Shown here one piece after another: positions 24,466-51,911 of a stretch of 64,000 nt of DNA. Where the stretch lies: positions 992,001 to 1,056,000 of the forward strand of contig NZ_JAWJZH010000001.1 of assembly GCF_033063295.1 (NCBI RefSeq), given 5' to 3'. Below the pieces are notes generated by a model. That model saw only the letters and a list, made by a program, of their open reading frames with translations. It did no database searches and had not been told where the DNA came from. The translations under genes and the position numbers were made by a program. Within the stretch, counting starts at the first letter, position 1. Each line of letters begins with the position of its first letter. The stretch comes from Nitrosomonas sp. Is35 (GTDB taxonomy: Bacteria; Pseudomonadota; Gammaproteobacteria; Burkholderiales; Nitrosomonadaceae).

Positions 24466-25673
24466 AAACACCATCAATCATCGGTACACCGCTGAGTGCA
24501 TCGGCAAAAAAAGTCATGCTGCTCGGCAGCGGCGAGCTCGGCAAGGAAGTCATCATCGCATTGCAGCGCCTCGGCGTTGAAACCATTGCGGTGGATCGCT
24601 ACGCCAACGCGCCGGGGCATCAAGTAGCGCATCGCGCGCATGTCATCAACATGGCGGATGGTCAGGCTTTGCGGGCATTGGTCGAAATGGAGCAACCCGA
24701 CATCATCGTGCCGGAAATCGAAGCGATCGCCACCGACATGCTGATCGAAATCGAGCAAGCCGGTATCGCGACCGTGATCCCGACGGCCCGTGCCGCGAAA
24801 CTGACGATGAATCGCGAAGGCATCCGCTGTCTGGCGGCGGAAACACTCGGTTTGCCGACATCGCCGTATGCTTTTGCCAATAGTTTGGATGAATTGCGCG
24901 CCGCGATCGACGGCAAAATCGGTTATCCCTGCATCGTCAAACCGGTCATGTCATCATCCGGAAAAGGGCAATCGCGTATCGATCAGGCCGGGGAGGTGGA
25001 AGCGGCGTGGCATTATGCCGCCAGCGGCAGCCGGGTCGATCAGGGGCGGGTCATCGTCGAAGGCGTGATCCACTTTGATTATGAAATCACGCAGCTGACA
25101 GTGCGCGCGTTGGATACGCATGGTGAAGTGCAAACGCATTTCTGCGAATCGATCGGGCATGTGCAGGTGCATGGCGATTATGTCGAAAGCTGGCAACCGC
25201 AGGCGATGTCCCTGGCGGCACTGCAACGTGCACGGGAAATCGCCAAGATCATCACCGATGATTTAGGCGGGTTGGGCATTTTTGGCGTGGAATTGTTCGT
25301 CAATGGCGACGACGTGTGGTTCAGCGAAGTCAGCCCGCGACCGCACGACACCGGTATGGTGACGATGTGCAGCCAGAAACAGAGCGAGTTCGACTTGCAC
25401 GCGCGCGCGATTTTGGGGCTGCCGGTCGATACGGCGCTGCTCGCACCCGGCGCCAGCGCGGTGATTTACGGTCAACTCGAAGCCAAAGGCATCGCATTTT
25501 CCGGCGTAGCCGAAGCGCTGCAAGTACCGCAAAGCGATATCCGCCTGTTCGGCAAGCCGGAATCGTTCAAACGCCGCCGCATGGGCGTTGCGCTCGCAAA
25601 TGGCGCGGATACCGGCGAAGCCCGCAGCCGTGCTAAACTTGCCGCCAGCCGGGTGACACCGATCAAAGATTAA
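24462..25673 (+). CDS. purT: Formate-dependent phosphoribosylglycinamide formyltransferase
   Basis: PurT formylates glycinamide ribonucleotide with formate and ATP, the folate-independent version of the third purine step. The 403-residue ATP-grasp protein has the N-terminal nucleotide/substrate region [20 protein letters not shown] (about 14-33), the ATP-binding segment [12 protein letters not shown] (about 160-171), and the metal-binding end [16 protein letters not shown] (about 286-301). AGGAG nine bases before ATG 24462 fixes the start, and the ATG overlaps the queG stop. Confidence 0.96.
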
Positions 25674-26875: not shown

Positions 26876-28522
26876 ATGCAACCAACAACCTCTATTAAGT
26901 TATCGAAGCATAGCATAGAAACACAATTTGTATTTTTCTATAATATTGGAGCGCAAATACAAAAATTCACTATCCCATCAGAGGATCAGAATTTTGAAAA
27001 AAGGAAGCTTTTAGGATCTCGGTTATATGAGTCTGCTTTTTTTGATAACCCAATACCTATTATTTGCGCTGTACATTTTCATGCCAAAGATGACTATATT
27101 GTGTCTTTAAATGAAAAAGTATTGGGAAATTCTCAACCACCAATAAAACTTTCAAGACTTCCATGTACTTATTATCGAGAATTGTCCACTCATAATACTG
27201 ATGCTGATAAGTTCGCTAAAAAATTAGAAGAAGTAAAAGATTTGGGCTTTTCACCTTTGGAATTCACTCTTTTTAAAAATGGGATACTAGCAGTTACTCT
27301 TAGATTAACTAACGAAGAGGAATTGGATGATTTTAAATATGTAGAATTAATTACCAGATCAAAGCAAATTGATAACAAAGATGATTTGGCTAATCTCGAT
27401 GATAATTCTTGCTCGATGATGAAGCTCGCTGGGAAAATCATGAATGTGATTGAACAAAATTTAGTGAATTATTTAAATAAGCATCAAATGACAGGAATAT
27501 CTCTAGCTACGGGTAAAGAAGAAGAAATTAGGTTTCATTGCACTAAACATAACTCTAATTTTTATGAAACGGAAAAAATTGATGATTTGAATGATGCTGC
27601 CTTAAATTCATTCCGTTCCTATAAAGATGGGAGATTTAATTTTCATACGTGCCTTATAACTACTACTCCATTCATTGGTACAGTAATTGATTTGTCGAAC
27701 CGACATATTGGCAGGCAATCTGAAAATAAAACAGCAGCAAGAATCCATAGAGAAAGAGAGATGCAGCTTGCACTTGCATGCGCCAGAATAACTAAGGAGT
27801 TTTTAGATAATTTTAATGACCCTGAGTTATATCTCGAGCGTGAGCTACCTAGACGAAACTTATATCATCCTGGCCCGAGTATTGTATTTGTGGGGCGTAG
27901 AGGGTGGGCATGTATTGTGAGAGAAGATCGTGATTCCAAATCTTTTCAACTTCATGTGATAGAAATCGTTCTATTGGTGATCACTTCAATCCTTGCATCT
28001 ACTAAATATACGAGGGATTTTATTAAGAGAGTTACAGAAGAGGGCGATGAAAAAGGAAAGAAATTTTTGTATGAATTTCAGAATGAAAAAAATAAAGTTA
28101 AGATTGATGTTAACTCAATAGTTAATTTTGCAAATTTTGTTTCAAGAATAAAACTTGGCTTGCCTCATCTTAATTTGGGAATTTTACTAAGTTCACATAT
28201 CTCTACCCATACGGGTATAGCAGCCATTCGTAGATTAAAATACTTAACTAAACATGATGATCTTGTTCTGGCAGCAAACAATTTAGTTGAAAATTACAAT
28301 TCCTTTTTTACGAGTATTGATGAAATTTGGAAAACTAAACAATTTCGCATAAATAAAAGGCTTTTAATTGTGGGTATAGCCAGTATTTTCATTAGTATCG
28401 CTACTACTTATTACGCAATGACGCAAAAAAATGAACCAACAAAGAATTGTGAATCAACTCAAAAGGTGCATGCTGTGCGAGGACAAGAAGTTGTAGCTTC
28501 GCAATGCCACCCAATCGAATGA
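26876..28522 (+). CDS. Uncharacterised 548-residue protein with C-terminal membrane anchor
   Basis: I do not recognise this protein. It is 548 residues, rich in Lys, Asn and Asp, and its DNA is far more AT-rich than its neighbours, which points to horizontal transfer. Most of it is soluble and charged. A weakly hydrophobic helix lies near residues 362-380 (VIEIVLLVITSILASTK), and one strong membrane segment (about 499-520, LLIVGIASIFISIATTYYAM) lies near the end, followed by a short tail with two cysteines. This suggests a cytosolic sensor or effector body fixed to the inner membrane by its C-terminus. It has its own transcript, with a 116-base leader, and ends where a patchwork of gene fragments begins. 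Confidence 0.72.
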   Translation: MQPTTSIKLSKHSIETQFVFFYNIGAQIQKFTIPSEDQNFEKRKLLGSRLYESAFFDNPIPIICAVHFHAKDDYIVSLNEKVLGNSQPPIKLSRLPCTYYRELSTHNTDADKFAKKLEEVKDLGFSPLEFTLFKNGILAVTLRLTNEEELDDFKYVELITRSKQIDNKDDLANLDDNSCSMMKLAGKIMNVIEQNLVNYLNKHQMTGISLATGKEEEIRFHCTKHNSNFYETEKIDDLNDAALNSFRSYKDGRFNFHTCLITTTPFIGTVIDLSNRHIGRQSENKTAARIHREREMQLALACARITKEFLDNFNDPELYLERELPRRNLYHPGPSIVFVGRRGWACIVREDRDSKSFQLHVIEIVLLVITSILASTKYTRDFIKRVTEEGDEKGKKFLYEFQNEKNKVKIDVNSIVNFANFVSRIKLGLPHLNLGILLSSHISTHTGIAAIRRLKYLTKHDDLVLAANNLVENYNSFFTSIDEIWKTKQFRINKRLLIVGIASIFISIATTYYAMTQKNEPTKNCESTQKVHAVRGQEVVASQCHPIE

Positions 28523-30511: not shown

Positions 30512-30796
30512 TCATGGACGGTGCTCTCGTATCCACTCCAGGAGCGCTTCATCCATGCGTGTTTGCCAGCCGCTGCCGGTAGCGCGGAACGATTCAACCA
30601 CTTCGCGCGATAAGCGGATGGTGATTCGTTCTTTGGTTACAGCCGCGCGCGGCCGGCCTACTCGTTTCAATTTCGCAAACTCGGCATCGGTTAGCGGTAA
30701 AGCATCCGGATCGGACATCGCGGCTGCGTTGATGGCAGCATCTTCTTCCGGGGTCGGTAGATACACTCTTTTGCCTGATTTAGTCTTGAGATACAT
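30512..30796 (-). CDS. brnA: BrnA-type antitoxin
   Basis: The 94-residue protein has a charged N-terminus and a C-terminal ribbon-helix-helix fold (ITIRLSREVVESFRATGSGW, about 59-78), then the BrnA end MDEALLEWIREHRP. BrnA neutralises the ribonuclease toxin BrnT and represses the operon. ATG 30796 is chosen since a longer reading has no family features; it overlaps the end of brnT by 17 bases. A truncated copy of its 3' half lies 1.9 kb to the left. Confidence 0.9.
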   Translation of the reverse strand: MYLKTKSGKRVYLPTPEEDAAINAAAMSDPDALPLTDAEFAKLKRVGRPRAAVTKERITIRLSREVVESFRATGSGWQTRMDEALLEWIREHRP

Positions 30797-31064
30797 AGCG
30801 TTTAATCTCTCTAGCATTTGCCTTGCGCAGGCTAATAATGCGGCGATAGTCGCCGCGGTCGGTAAATACCACATAAAATAAGCGTGTTTCGATGAGCGCG
30901 AGGGCGATGATGCGTACTTCACCGTATTCCATGCGCGTATCCTGCCACAATTGAGCGGATTCCCAATCAAGTTCAGAAGCCAGCGCCATTGATACGCCAT
31001 GTTTGGTGATATTGACAGCATCTTTGGCGGGATCGAATGTGATTTTCACGCACATATTGTGCAT
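30780..31064 (-). CDS. brnT: BrnT-family ribonuclease toxin
   Basis: The 94-residue protein has the BrnT pattern: ITFDPAKDAVNITKHGVSM (about 8-26), a central ESAQLW, the basic RIIALALIETRLFYVVFTDRG, and RRIISLRKANAREIKRY (about 74-90), which holds the catalytic arginines of this RelE-like fold. It would cut RNA and slow growth unless bound by BrnA. An inner ATG at 31055 is also possible; neither has a clear ribosome binding site. A 41-base palindrome covers the start, as expected for an autoregulated toxin-antitoxin operon. Confidence 0.9.
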   Translation of the reverse strand: MHNMCVKITFDPAKDAVNITKHGVSMALASELDWESAQLWQDTRMEYGEVRIIALALIETRLFYVVFTDRGDYRRIISLRKANAREIKRYVSQD

Positions 31065-34945: not shown

Positions 34946-35101
34946 ATAATTTTTTCTTGGTTTATTGATACTATTGGCATTAATTGTGGGAAAAATATCG
35001 TCTACTAGATAAATTTATAGCAGATGATTCTTTATGATATAAGCGATAGGATTTAGCAGAGGTGTCTACTTTGAATAGACAATTTAATAAACGGTAGTAA
35101 A

Positions 35102-36205
35102 GTGATTACTGAAAATATGAATTCTGATAAAGAAGAAATCGAAGGTCTTGGTAATGATGAAGATGCCTCTTTGGGTGATTACCCAATCGACACACTACTA
35201 ATTCGAAATGAACCACGAACAGTTCATGATGTATTACGTCGAATTAAATCGGGTGGTTATGTTATGGACCCAGACTTTCAACGTGATTTTATCTGGTCGG
35301 AAGATAAACAAAGTAAGCTGATCGAATCTGTGTTGATGAGAATACCGTTACCTGTATTCTATTTAGGCGAGGACGATCACGGCAGAATGATTGTTGTTGA
35401 TGGTTTGCAAAGGCTTTCAACTTTTGATCGTTTTGTAAATAACGAACTTCGATTAAAGCTTCCACAACAAACTGAATTAGATAATAAGTTCTTTAAAAAT
35501 CTTTCTCCTAAGCTTCAGAACCGAGTCGAAGATTGTAATTTAATTCTTTACATTATTGATGCCAAGGTGCCTGATCGAGCAAGGTTAGATATCTTTGAAC
35601 GCGTAAATAGTGGTGTGCCATTGACCAGACAACAAATGCGTAACTGTTTGTATGACGGGAAAGCCACTAAATTTCTGAAAGAAGAAGCTAAAAAAGATCT
35701 TTTCATAAAAGCAACAGGAGACAGTCTTTCAGCCAAAACTATGCGAGATAAAGAATTTGTTAATCGCTTTTGTGCATTCCGAATATTGCCACTTAATGCA
35801 TATAAGGGTGATATGGACGAATGGCTCGCTATGGCATTAAAAGAAATGAATAAATTTGATGAGGCATCGTTATTCAAGCTCTCCAATGAATTTCAAAATT
35901 CTCTACAAAACAATTTTATGCTTTTTAATGAGCATGCTTTCCGCAAGCATATACCTGGACAAGTCAAACGGGGGATCCTAAATGCTTCACTTTGGGATGT
36001 TATGATCACAGGATTGGCTCAATATACCAATGATCAAGTAAGGCGATATGCGGATGATCTTAAATCCTATTTTTATATCTTACTTGAGGATGATGCTTTT
36101 GTTTCTTCCATTACTTATGGCCCAAACAGCACTAGTAATGTGAAGTTTCGTTTTGAAGCAACTCAAAAAATGTTTAAGGAGGTGTTTGGTGCTAACGCGT
36201 CTTGA
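35102..36205 (+). CDS. DUF262-domain protein (GmrS/ParB-nuclease-like)
   Basis: The 367-residue protein carries a DUF262 domain: the FQRDFIWSEDKQSKLIESVL stretch (about 60-79) and the signature VVDGLQRLSTF (about 97-107), the counterpart of DGQQR. DUF262 is the nucleotide-sensing half of GmrSD-type restriction enzymes and of related anti-phage proteins; the DUF1524 HNH nuclease half is missing here. GTG at 35102 or ATG at 35117 may be the start. It opens a three-gene operon and overlaps the ATPase gene by 17 bases. The DNA is AT-rich compared with flanking genes, suggesting transfer. Confidence 0.87.
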   Translation: MITENMNSDKEEIEGLGNDEDASLGDYPIDTLLIRNEPRTVHDVLRRIKSGGYVMDPDFQRDFIWSEDKQSKLIESVLMRIPLPVFYLGEDDHGRMIVVDGLQRLSTFDRFVNNELRLKLPQQTELDNKFFKNLSPKLQNRVEDCNLILYIIDAKVPDRARLDIFERVNSGVPLTRQQMRNCLYDGKATKFLKEEAKKDLFIKATGDSLSAKTMRDKEFVNRFCAFRILPLNAYKGDMDEWLAMALKEMNKFDEASLFKLSNEFQNSLQNNFMLFNEHAFRKHIPGQVKRGILNASLWDVMITGLAQYTNDQVRRYADDLKSYFYILLEDDAFVSSITYGPNSTSNVKFRFEATQKMFKEVFGANAS

Positions 36206-37319
36206 TCTTCGTTACTTCAAATGTTTTGAGTTACTTCGATTACCTCTCGGACATCTAACACTTTTATCAGGAACTAACGCATCGGGCAAATCATCAGTAT
36301 TACAAGCTTTAGTCTTACTTCATCAGACAATGCGTGAACACGAGTGGTCTACACGATTGATGTTAAACGGGGAAGCTATAAAATTAGGCACGGTTTCAGA
36401 TGTTGTTGATAAACTTCATGGCAGAAAAAGCCTTAGTATTGGTGTAATAGACCATCACAAAACGTATTCGTGGAGTTTTAGTGGAGAGCGATCTGAACTG
36501 TCTATGTCGGTTGATCATGTAATGGTAGATCAGGATTGCATTAATCAACCAGAACGTTTACGTCATTTGCTTTCGCCTGAACTCACTACATCATTGGCTA
36601 ATCGTCTAAAAAACCTTACCTACATTACTGCCGAGCGTATCGGTCCGCGTGAAGTTTATGCGCTTGAAGATCGTCAAATTGCTTCTGTTGTTGGACCCGC
36701 AGGTGAACATGCAGTGAGTGTGCTGCATTGGGGGCGAGACGAACCCGTTTTGGATGGATTGGTTATTCAAGATGTAATAAATAAACGTTTGCATCAACTT
36801 GAAGCGCGTATGCAGATGTTTTTTCCAGGGTGCGGGTTAGAGGTGCAGCAGGTTCCGAGAGTGAATGCTGTCACACTAGGATTACGTACTTCCGATGCGA
36901 CAGATTTTCACCGTCCAATCCACGTAGGCTTTGGCCTTACGCAAGTATTACCTATCGTGATCGCCGCGCTCTCTGCTGCTGAAGAGGACATCCTGTTGAT
37001 TGAAAACCCAGAGGTACATCTGCATCCTGCAGGGCAGATGTTTATGGGGCAATTTTTAGCAGAAATTGCTAATGCTGGGATACAGGTTATCGTGGAAACG
37101 CATAGTGATCATGTACTTAATGGTATTCGTCGATTCGTTAAATCGGGCCGGATTCAACCAGAAAAGATTGCACTGCATTTTTTTAGATCAAGCTCTTCTA
37201 TTGATATAGCACAAGTAGTTAGTCCACAAATAGATGAGAGAGGGAATATTAATTCATGGCCAGATGGATTCTTTGATCAATTTGATAAAGACATGAATTA
37301 CTTTGCTGGATGGGAATGA
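36189..37319 (+). CDS. AAA/RecF-like ATPase with DUF3696 C-terminus
   Basis: The 376-residue protein is an ABC/SMC-type ATPase with Walker A GTNASGKSS (28-36), Walker B DILLIENPEVHLHP and a switch histidine in VETHSDHVLNGI; the final GNINSWPDGFFDQFDKD matches the DUF3696 end. Proteins of this group occur with nucleases in OLD-like and other defence pairs. GTG at 36189 with AAGGAGG six bases upstream is the best start, inside the end of the DUF262 gene. Its stop overlaps the start of the third gene (ATGA). It probably senses or loads on DNA ends and drives partner proteins, by analogy. Confidence 0.88.
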   Translation: MLTRLDLRYFKCFELLRLPLGHLTLLSGTNASGKSSVLQALVLLHQTMREHEWSTRLMLNGEAIKLGTVSDVVDKLHGRKSLSIGVIDHHKTYSWSFSGERSELSMSVDHVMVDQDCINQPERLRHLLSPELTTSLANRLKNLTYITAERIGPREVYALEDRQIASVVGPAGEHAVSVLHWGRDEPVLDGLVIQDVINKRLHQLEARMQMFFPGCGLEVQQVPRVNAVTLGLRTSDATDFHRPIHVGFGLTQVLPIVIAALSAAEEDILLIENPEVHLHPAGQMFMGQFLAEIANAGIQVIVETHSDHVLNGIRRFVKSGRIQPEKIALHFFRSSSSIDIAQVVSPQIDERGNINSWPDGFFDQFDKDMNYFAGWE

Positions 37320-38269
37320 TGGAAGTTCTGCTAAATGATTTGTCTCTTCATGGGCAATTTGCAAGTATCCATGACTTTCAAAATGCCATCCGTTCTATTA
37401 TGCGCATGCGAAATAAGGTGCAGCAGTTTGGGCGTGAGTTGTATTGCCATCGAAATTTAGTATTGGCTAAGGTTACTTACGAAATGACAATGCAGCAGGC
37501 TGTCATGTATTTTGACCAAAATGAGCGCAGAGCAATAATGGGATGGCTAACACAATATGGGCCATTCTGGGAAGATAGTCGCAATCATGGGCCAGATGAT
37601 TATTTTGAATCCCAAAAACAGATAGTGACCGATACGGCCTTAGGAGAAGCTGCGTATCGTTGTTTTAGTGGAAGTGAATATCAATTAATTAGCTTAGCAA
37701 CTTCAGATTGGTTGTTTACGCCGATACGTGTTGTTTGGTATCGCGATGACCAAATAACAGATATCGATGTTTTTAATCATTGGAAAACCAACACACTTGA
37801 AACTGCTCTACAAGTATCTTCGCCATTAATACAATCTTGGGAACAACTGGCTTCAACTATGCGAGGTCGTTGTGCCAACTTAATTTTTGCTGCTGATAGC
37901 TTTAAACCATTGCGCGGGCATCCCTTTGTTAGTAGTGCAGCTCAACGCATTGTTGAGCTTTTGCAAATTTTGGATAAGTTGAAAAGTTGTTTTGATACCC
38001 AAGGACAGAGGACGGCTGAAGGACATGAGATTTATCAGAATCATTTTACAGGTAACAAGGCTTGGTTTACTGACTCCTCAGATAGTGAAAAAACTGAATT
38101 TAAAGCAGAGCTTACTTTCAGTCACCCAGAGAATGAAAGTGAAACCTTATTCTGTACTTGGCATGGAAAAATAAAAACTCCTCAGTTCCGTATTCATTTT
38201 TCTTTTCCTATAAGTGGAAATGAACCTTTGTATGTAGTTTACGTCGGCCCGAAACTTACTAAGCGATAA
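37316..38269 (+). CDS. Third protein of the DUF262-ATPase operon, unknown
   Basis: I do not recognise this 317-residue protein. It has no signal peptide or membrane segment. The N-terminal 90 residues are helical and contain RELYCH (R40 and H45), an R-x4-H spacing like that of HEPN ribonucleases, though this may be chance. The middle has WFTPIRVVWYRDD-like strands and the C-terminus is beta-rich (LFCTWHGKIKTPQFRIHFSF). Tandem ATGs at 37310, 37316 and 37319 are possible; 37316 overlaps the ATPase stop. Tight coupling shows that it works with the two upstream proteins, perhaps as the effector. It ends ten bases before a convergent gene. Confidence 0.8.
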   Translation: MMEVLLNDLSLHGQFASIHDFQNAIRSIMRMRNKVQQFGRELYCHRNLVLAKVTYEMTMQQAVMYFDQNERRAIMGWLTQYGPFWEDSRNHGPDDYFESQKQIVTDTALGEAAYRCFSGSEYQLISLATSDWLFTPIRVVWYRDDQITDIDVFNHWKTNTLETALQVSSPLIQSWEQLASTMRGRCANLIFAADSFKPLRGHPFVSSAAQRIVELLQILDKLKSCFDTQGQRTAEGHEIYQNHFTGNKAWFTDSSDSEKTEFKAELTFSHPENESETLFCTWHGKIKTPQFRIHFSFPISGNEPLYVVYVGPKLTKR

Positions 38270-38279
38270 TCGTTATTTC

Positions 38280-51369: not shown

Positions 51370-51911
51370 TTTAAACTCTTCCAGCCATCCGGCTACGCAC
51401 AACATAATGCGCTGGCTGGTGCGGTACTGTTCTGAAATGGTGAGTGACCATCTTAATGCAATATTTTTAATTTATCTGTACGTGCGAACACGTAGGGTTA
51501 AACCCTTATTGATGGTCTGCAAAAGTTATACATGCACCGTAATTGCCATTCGCAGTAATTGGCGCAATAAGAATATGCCCCACAAGGTACTGAATTTTGC
51601 AGCGATAGCAGTACAACAGTGCGCCGGTCTCAGACCTGCAAAGCTAATATGTACAGTAACCTACGCGTGGAAGTTAACCGATCCAACGTGCGAAAGCACT
51701 ACAGCCCGCATACCGGAAAATATTGAAGTGAAGTAGTTTGGATTTGATTTGGCAGCAGGGTTTTACCAAGAGGTGGGATTACCTGGTTTGATAGAGGTGT
51801 GAAACTTTGTCAACCAAGCGCGAAAGCGCAAAGGGTAATCCCATGAGTAGTTTTCAACAGAAAGCCTGAATTGCGGCAATTCAACCCCATTTCCACCACA
51901 ACAACGCCAAT

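Follow-up and report, generated by a model that had tools for sequence, protein, structure and literature searches.

The window analysed here, a stretch of 64,000 nucleotides from Nitrosomonas sp. Is35 (contig NZ_JAWJZH010000001.1, positions 992,001 to 1,056,000), carries three overlapping genes, A, B and C, which almost certainly form a complete Menshen (NsnA-NsnB-NsnC) anti-phage system in Nitrosomonas (Table 1). The trio lies between the genes for a dienelactone hydrolase and an iron alcohol dehydrogenase (Fe-ADH). Coordinates, strand, overlaps and AT-richness relative to the flanks had been pointed out in an earlier note made from the letters of this DNA, and all of them hold: the GC fraction is 0.368 in nsnA, 0.426 in nsnB and 0.396 in nsnC versus 0.589 and 0.570 in the flanking genes. 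The trio is also more AT-rich than all 273 segments of equal length (step 200) that lie clear of it, the lowest of which, starting at 25601, has a GC fraction of 0.415. For nsnA an alternative in-frame ATG is found at 35117. The same nsnA-nsnB overlap recurs in 35 of 62 measurable relatives, a count biased towards agreement by the choice of the start codons closest to those of the window. There is no open reading frame (ORF) between nsnC and its convergent neighbour that could encode a small antitoxin.

Table 1. Features of the Menshen locus (positions in the window)
Feature	Position	Strand	Description
nsnA (gene A)	35102..36205	+	367 aa; GTG start; DUF262 (GmrSD_N) protein
nsnB (gene B)	36189..37319	+	376 aa; GTG start; OLD/PtuA/AriA-like ABC ATPase with DUF3696 tail
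nsnC (gene C)	37316..38269	+	317 aa; ATG start; third protein, likely effector
nsnA/nsnB overlap	36189..36205	+	17 bases
nsnB/nsnC overlap	37316..37319	+	4 bases (ATGA)
Predicted RelE/YoeB-like (BECR-type) domain, NsnC residues 186-317	37871..38266	+	structure similarity; invariant H283, K285, R292, H294, Y309, G311, K313

Comparison with the Menshen models of PADLOC-DB (PDLC03877, PDLC03878 and PDLC03896) gave near full-length matches for all three proteins: gene A to NsnA (E 2.1e-113), gene B to NsnB (E 4.6e-105, residues 2-373 of 376) and gene C to NsnC (PDLC03896, E 6.9e-130, residues 2-317, profile positions 1-319 of 319). The runner-up names are much weaker (PD-T4-2_A, 1e-37, for gene A; HEC-03B, 1.3e-35, for gene B). 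The genes are adjacent, lie on the same strand and follow the order A-B-C; membership in Menshen and gene order are thereby established. The earlier note was right in seeing a three-gene defence system at this place and mistaken in taking it to be possibly undescribed. The system is already known, in PADLOC and in print, an outcome which the earlier note itself had listed as refuting its proposal, and its architecture has been published again under the name ptuXYZ. The third protein, which the earlier note could assign to no family known to it, indeed has no match in Pfam and NCBIfam (E <= 1) or in PHROG (E <= 0.1), but matches the NsnC model of PADLOC. This explains why the trio would look new to anyone without the PADLOC models. 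Since the trio is a named defence system, of which the Nitrosomonas locus is a further copy, it should be annotated as Menshen and not pursued as new. Its narrower value is that two published names are tied to one architecture, that the third gene emerges as a constant member, that an assignment of NsnC to the HEPN ribonucleases is removed and that candidate residues for mutation are named.

NsnA belongs to the DUF262 family (Pfam DUF262/GmrSD_N, E 4.1e-23) and consists of a ParB/sulfiredoxin-type N-terminal domain and a helical C-terminal half, with BrxU and SspE as the best folds. Pfam (E <= 1) gave no match to DUF1524, the second half of GmrSD, BrxU and SspE, for any protein of the trio, in agreement with the earlier description of a DUF262 protein without this half, and Pfam revealed no nuclease domain in NsnA beyond DUF262. 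The motif residues V99-R104, F165, N169, Q177, R180 and N181 are kept in 65 of 65 sequences. NsnB, proposed before to be an OLD-like ATPase, is indeed of the OLD/PtuA/AriA type (Pfam AAA_15, E 2.4e-23, and DUF3696, E 1.7e-14; PADLOC AriA, E 1.7e-26, and PtuA, E 9.7e-13). Its motifs are intact: of the 71 sequences, 65 to 71 share the residue at each position checked in Walker A, the signature region, Walker B and the E-T-H-S-D-H loop, and K34, S35, H277, H279, E303, H305, S306, D307 and H308 are kept in all 71. A TOPRIM domain, as known from PARIS and Gabija, was likewise not matched by any protein of the trio (Pfam, E <= 1). PFLU4242, a DUF262 protein known from papers on plasmid cost, was weighed as a possible relative but set aside, since it contains DUF1524 (PMC8544851).

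The third gene is a constant partner of the other two. Across 84,980 scanned species genomes 81 relatives turned up, of which the best 80, from 79 loci, were used. Context was counted, near-duplicates included, wherever over 2,500 bases precede NsnC (71 loci). NsnB is present in all 71, and NsnA and NsnB precede NsnC on one strand in 70, among them L064 with the internal deletion described below, the exception being L071; in L040, A and B stand apart. From the side of NsnA, 35 stretches downstream of NsnA-family genes were surveyed (29 and six places, the window's own excluded); in 27 of the 34 distant loci with enough room, a third gene accompanies A and B, and the remaining stretch (L128) ends after B. 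No NsnB was found beside NsnA in six of the 34 (L121, L134, L139, L140, L141, L147). An NsnC model matches 29 of 30 scanned third-gene ORFs, a set comprising those of the 27 A-B-third-gene loci, the window, L148 and L123. The one without a match, L123 (1-5500), has an unrelated ORF without PADLOC match in place of C, which is probably an integrase-like member. In L146 (2438-3405) NsnC is shortened to 213 residues and matches the first part of the models only. The possibility that the third gene is missing from most related loci, which the earlier note had named as fatal to its proposal, is thus contradicted by the neighbourhood counts from either side. At 21 weaker NsnA-family places (L091-L110, L112) no NsnB was found by tblastn within about 1.5 kb; these are probably other DUF262 families.

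For NsnC itself the protein collection gave 1061 proteins (E <= 0.001). Its structure was predicted with high confidence (predicted local distance difference test 92), and Foldseek with this model gave no match at E <= 0.001. The top five VIA rows for the C-terminal half are RelE, YoeB and RelK types and one further toxin-antitoxin chain, with 81-84 residues aligned to chains of 82-95; the best structural rows are RelE/YoeB/ParE-type toxins and not DNA endonucleases. The last 35 residues contain the pattern H-x-K / R-x-H / Y-x-G-x-K, and H283, K285, R292, H294, Y309, G311 and K313 are strictly conserved in this NsnC branch (73 of 73 sequences). The basic residues and histidines among them (H283, K285, R292, H294, K313) are those conserved on the strands of the predicted BECR domain, and they probably correspond to the catalytic residues of the toxins. 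Conservation extends to more distant proteins: H283 is found in 39, K285 in 37 and R292 in 38 of 39 chosen NsnC sequences (11-70% identical; L123, L136 and L146 excluded), and in 28, 27 and 26, respectively, of 30 unselected third-gene ORFs from distant loci.

Profile comparison aligned R292 with the arginine of the HigB 'QWRLVF' strand at a score of 25.4, which none of 60 column shuffles reached and which corresponds to a probability of only 16%. Comparisons of the C-terminal domain with YoeB, PemK and PIN profiles gave noise and that with ParE near noise; the NsnC profile found a single irrelevant match (E 1.8) among PDB sequences, and the NsnC patterns matched no viral contig. A relationship of the NsnC C-terminal domain to the C-terminal part of NsnB was rejected. 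The hhalign score of 68.7, above all 60 shuffles, was an artefact of the row from L064 (OY282353.1), in which, owing to an internal deletion, residues 1-128 of NsnB run on in frame into a later portion of NsnC, and fell to 15.4 without this row. L064 was kept in the 71-locus context count and in the NsnB and NsnC rows of the conservation count for R40 and H45 given below; it is absent from the 60 common rows used for pairwise identity and from the 71- and 73-sequence residue counts.

Two further observations concern this domain. The third gene of L136 (2384-3133), 249 residues long, matches other NsnC models but lacks the H-x-K / R pattern in the alignment, so NsnC C-terminal domains may vary. 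In L125 (2520-3392) the last 100 residues of NsnC weakly match the end of the HEC-07 model (E 1.2e-4), a hint that the domain may be shared with another candidate defence system.

Among described systems, Menshen shares with the trio all three proteins, the gene order, the near full-length profile coverage and a DUF262 protein without DUF1524. A 2023 review counts Menshen among the DUF262 systems that lack DUF1524 and reports phage protection for Menshen as found elsewhere than at the Nitrosomonas locus; in contrast to the trio, in which no TOPRIM was matched, it ties one component to an OLD-type TOPRIM domain (PMC10952713). The ptuXYZ locus, presented as novel in 2025, is described as a DUF262 protein, a PtuA-like ATPase and a third member whose N-terminal domain is PIN-like and whose C-terminal domain is YoeB-like (PMC11980606). 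By this description it resembles the trio in the DUF262 protein without DUF1524, the PtuA-like ATPase and the presumably two-domain third protein, and the model of PtuZ independently gave the same call of a YoeB-like BECR domain at the C-terminus (PMC11980606). From anatomy and gene order, with ptuXYZ compared by its description, we infer that Menshen and ptuXYZ are probably the same system. The word Menshen is absent from the main text of PMC11980606, the only paper found on the subject of ptuXYZ and PtuZ; Millman 2022 and Li et al. 2025 may already say more. GmrSD, BrxU and SspE have DUF262 and the ParB/Srx-type fold in common with NsnA, but carry DUF1524 (PMC10952713), whereas NsnA lacks it and has an ABC ATPase and NsnC for neighbours. 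RelE, YoeB and HigB toxins of the BECR fold resemble residues 186-317 of NsnC, including conserved basic residues; NsnC, in contrast, is a protein of 317 residues in a three-gene defence operon, with no ORF for a small antitoxin before the convergent neighbour. PARIS (AriA/AriB) and Septu (PtuA/PtuB, PtuB being an HNH nuclease) combine a separate effector with an ABC ATPase that belongs, broadly, to the group of NsnB; the trio differs by the missing TOPRIM match and by having a DUF262 protein and NsnC.

The third protein appears to be the likeliest effector, as proposed before, in view of its predicted RelE/YoeB-like C-terminal domain with invariant residues, and NsnC is probably a ribonuclease (RNase) effector. 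The best explanation of the whole, which we favour with moderate confidence, is Menshen as a leashed RNase with NsnC as effector, NsnB as clamp and NsnA as sensor or regulator. The C-terminal RelE/YoeB-like (BECR-type) RNase domain of NsnC would be kept inactive in a complex with NsnB, and NsnA, a nucleotide-binding member of the DUF262 family with ParB/sulfiredoxin fold, would sense infection or set the state of the complex. Upon infection the NsnB ATPase would change its state and NsnC would be freed or switched on; RNA cleavage by NsnC would then stop the phage, and the infected cell would probably be lost as well. What we infer in this scheme is the RNase activity, the sequestration of NsnC by NsnB, the sensing role and the abortive outcome. 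An analogous case is PARIS, whose ATPase AriA, on detecting a phage protein, activates AriB to cleave tRNA (PMC12839542). A more specific version, to which we would give slightly less than an even chance, is a toxin-type RNA-cleaving Menshen identical with ptuXYZ, with a site H283/K285/R292/H294/Y309/K/H313 in NsnC, leashed by NsnB and released via a nucleotide switch in NsnA. If true, Menshen (2022) and ptuXYZ (2025) would be one system, and DUF262 sensors, OLD-type ATPases and toxin-antitoxin RNases would be joined in one logic. Mutating H283, K285, R292, H294, Y309 and K313 of NsnC would tell whether Menshen kills via RNA cutting.

Several points speak for reversed roles, with NsnA (DUF262, ParB/Srx fold) as nuclease or nucleoside triphosphate-depleting effector, NsnC as phage sensor and NsnB as signal relay. 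NsnC diverges fastest, as sensors often do (mean pairwise identity over 60 common rows 0.434 versus 0.595 for NsnA and 0.556 for NsnB), and the motif residues of NsnA are kept throughout. Moreover, Menshen and Dazbog are reported to lose their protective effect when the DUF262 gene is mutated or deleted (PMC10952713), and PtuX is called a putative nuclease by the ptuXYZ authors (PMC11980606). However, a pure sensor has no obvious need for seven invariant residues so close to its end, and NsnA shows no nuclease match beyond DUF262, the nuclease of BrxU and SspE being the DUF1524 half which NsnA lacks; we regard the reversal, the main rival, as less likely. A modification-dependent restriction of type IV-like kind, in which NsnA reads modified phage DNA and NsnB and NsnC cut DNA and not RNA, is still less probable, given that neither DUF1524 nor another HNH match is found in Pfam and that the C-terminal structural matches of NsnC are toxins. 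That NsnC is a HEPN ribonuclease by virtue of an R-x4-H string at residues 40-45, a resemblance which the earlier note thought might be chance, is rejected: the string occurs in the window protein but is not conserved (of 95 close sequences 70 keep R40 and 90 keep H45, of 74 wider ones 40 and 48, respectively), and the protein lacks any Pfam match. An undescribed three-gene defence system distinct from Menshen, suggested by the fact that gene C falls into no family of Pfam, NCBIfam or PHROG, is refuted by the near full-length Menshen matches and has practically no likelihood left.

Within Nitrosomonas the system is sporadic. NsnC was found in 3 of 61 relatives, the genome of the window counted, and its nearest relatives lie in Nitrosomonas metagenome-assembled genomes (89% in one search, 92% in another). 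The flanking Fe-ADH gene is present in 45 of 61 genomes of the genus. At 30 ADH loci read, NsnC adjoins in two, the window's own and G028, where the match to the hydrolase is limited to its last fifth. G812 and G807 show the empty site, with 30-50 bases between the dienelactone-hydrolase gene and ADH, and in five further loci this distance is 163-1147 bases. Nothing of the window's gene set was found within the stretch at the other 21, three of which, read further, have the hydrolase beyond other genes. The gap between hydrolase and ADH holds a PEP-CTERM protein (three relatives), MauE/glutaredoxin-type and glyoxalase genes (one) or at most 50 bases (two) in the relatives read, and PADLOC recognised no defence family among these occupants. 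The notion that the trio sits in a defence hotspot is therefore not supported; it has been acquired sporadically, and probably recently, at a site of variable content. The variability of the gap in the genus is seen at 34946-38279 of the window and in L329, L330, L333 and L334.

Three other features of the window may be mentioned. A BrnT toxin / BrnA antitoxin pair (30512-31064, minus strand; Pfam E 3.6e-21 and 9.4e-21) lies about 4 kb from the Menshen genes. An AT-rich ORF of 548 residues (26876-28522, plus strand; GC fraction 0.335) has no Pfam or PADLOC match and at least six matches in the protein collection, among those listed one 99% and five 33-63% identical; it has a hydrophobic stretch, judged by eye, at residues 496-515 and is possibly an unstudied acquired gene. 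Finally, Rfam psRNA2 is matched at 51657-51841 on the minus strand with 91.3 bits.
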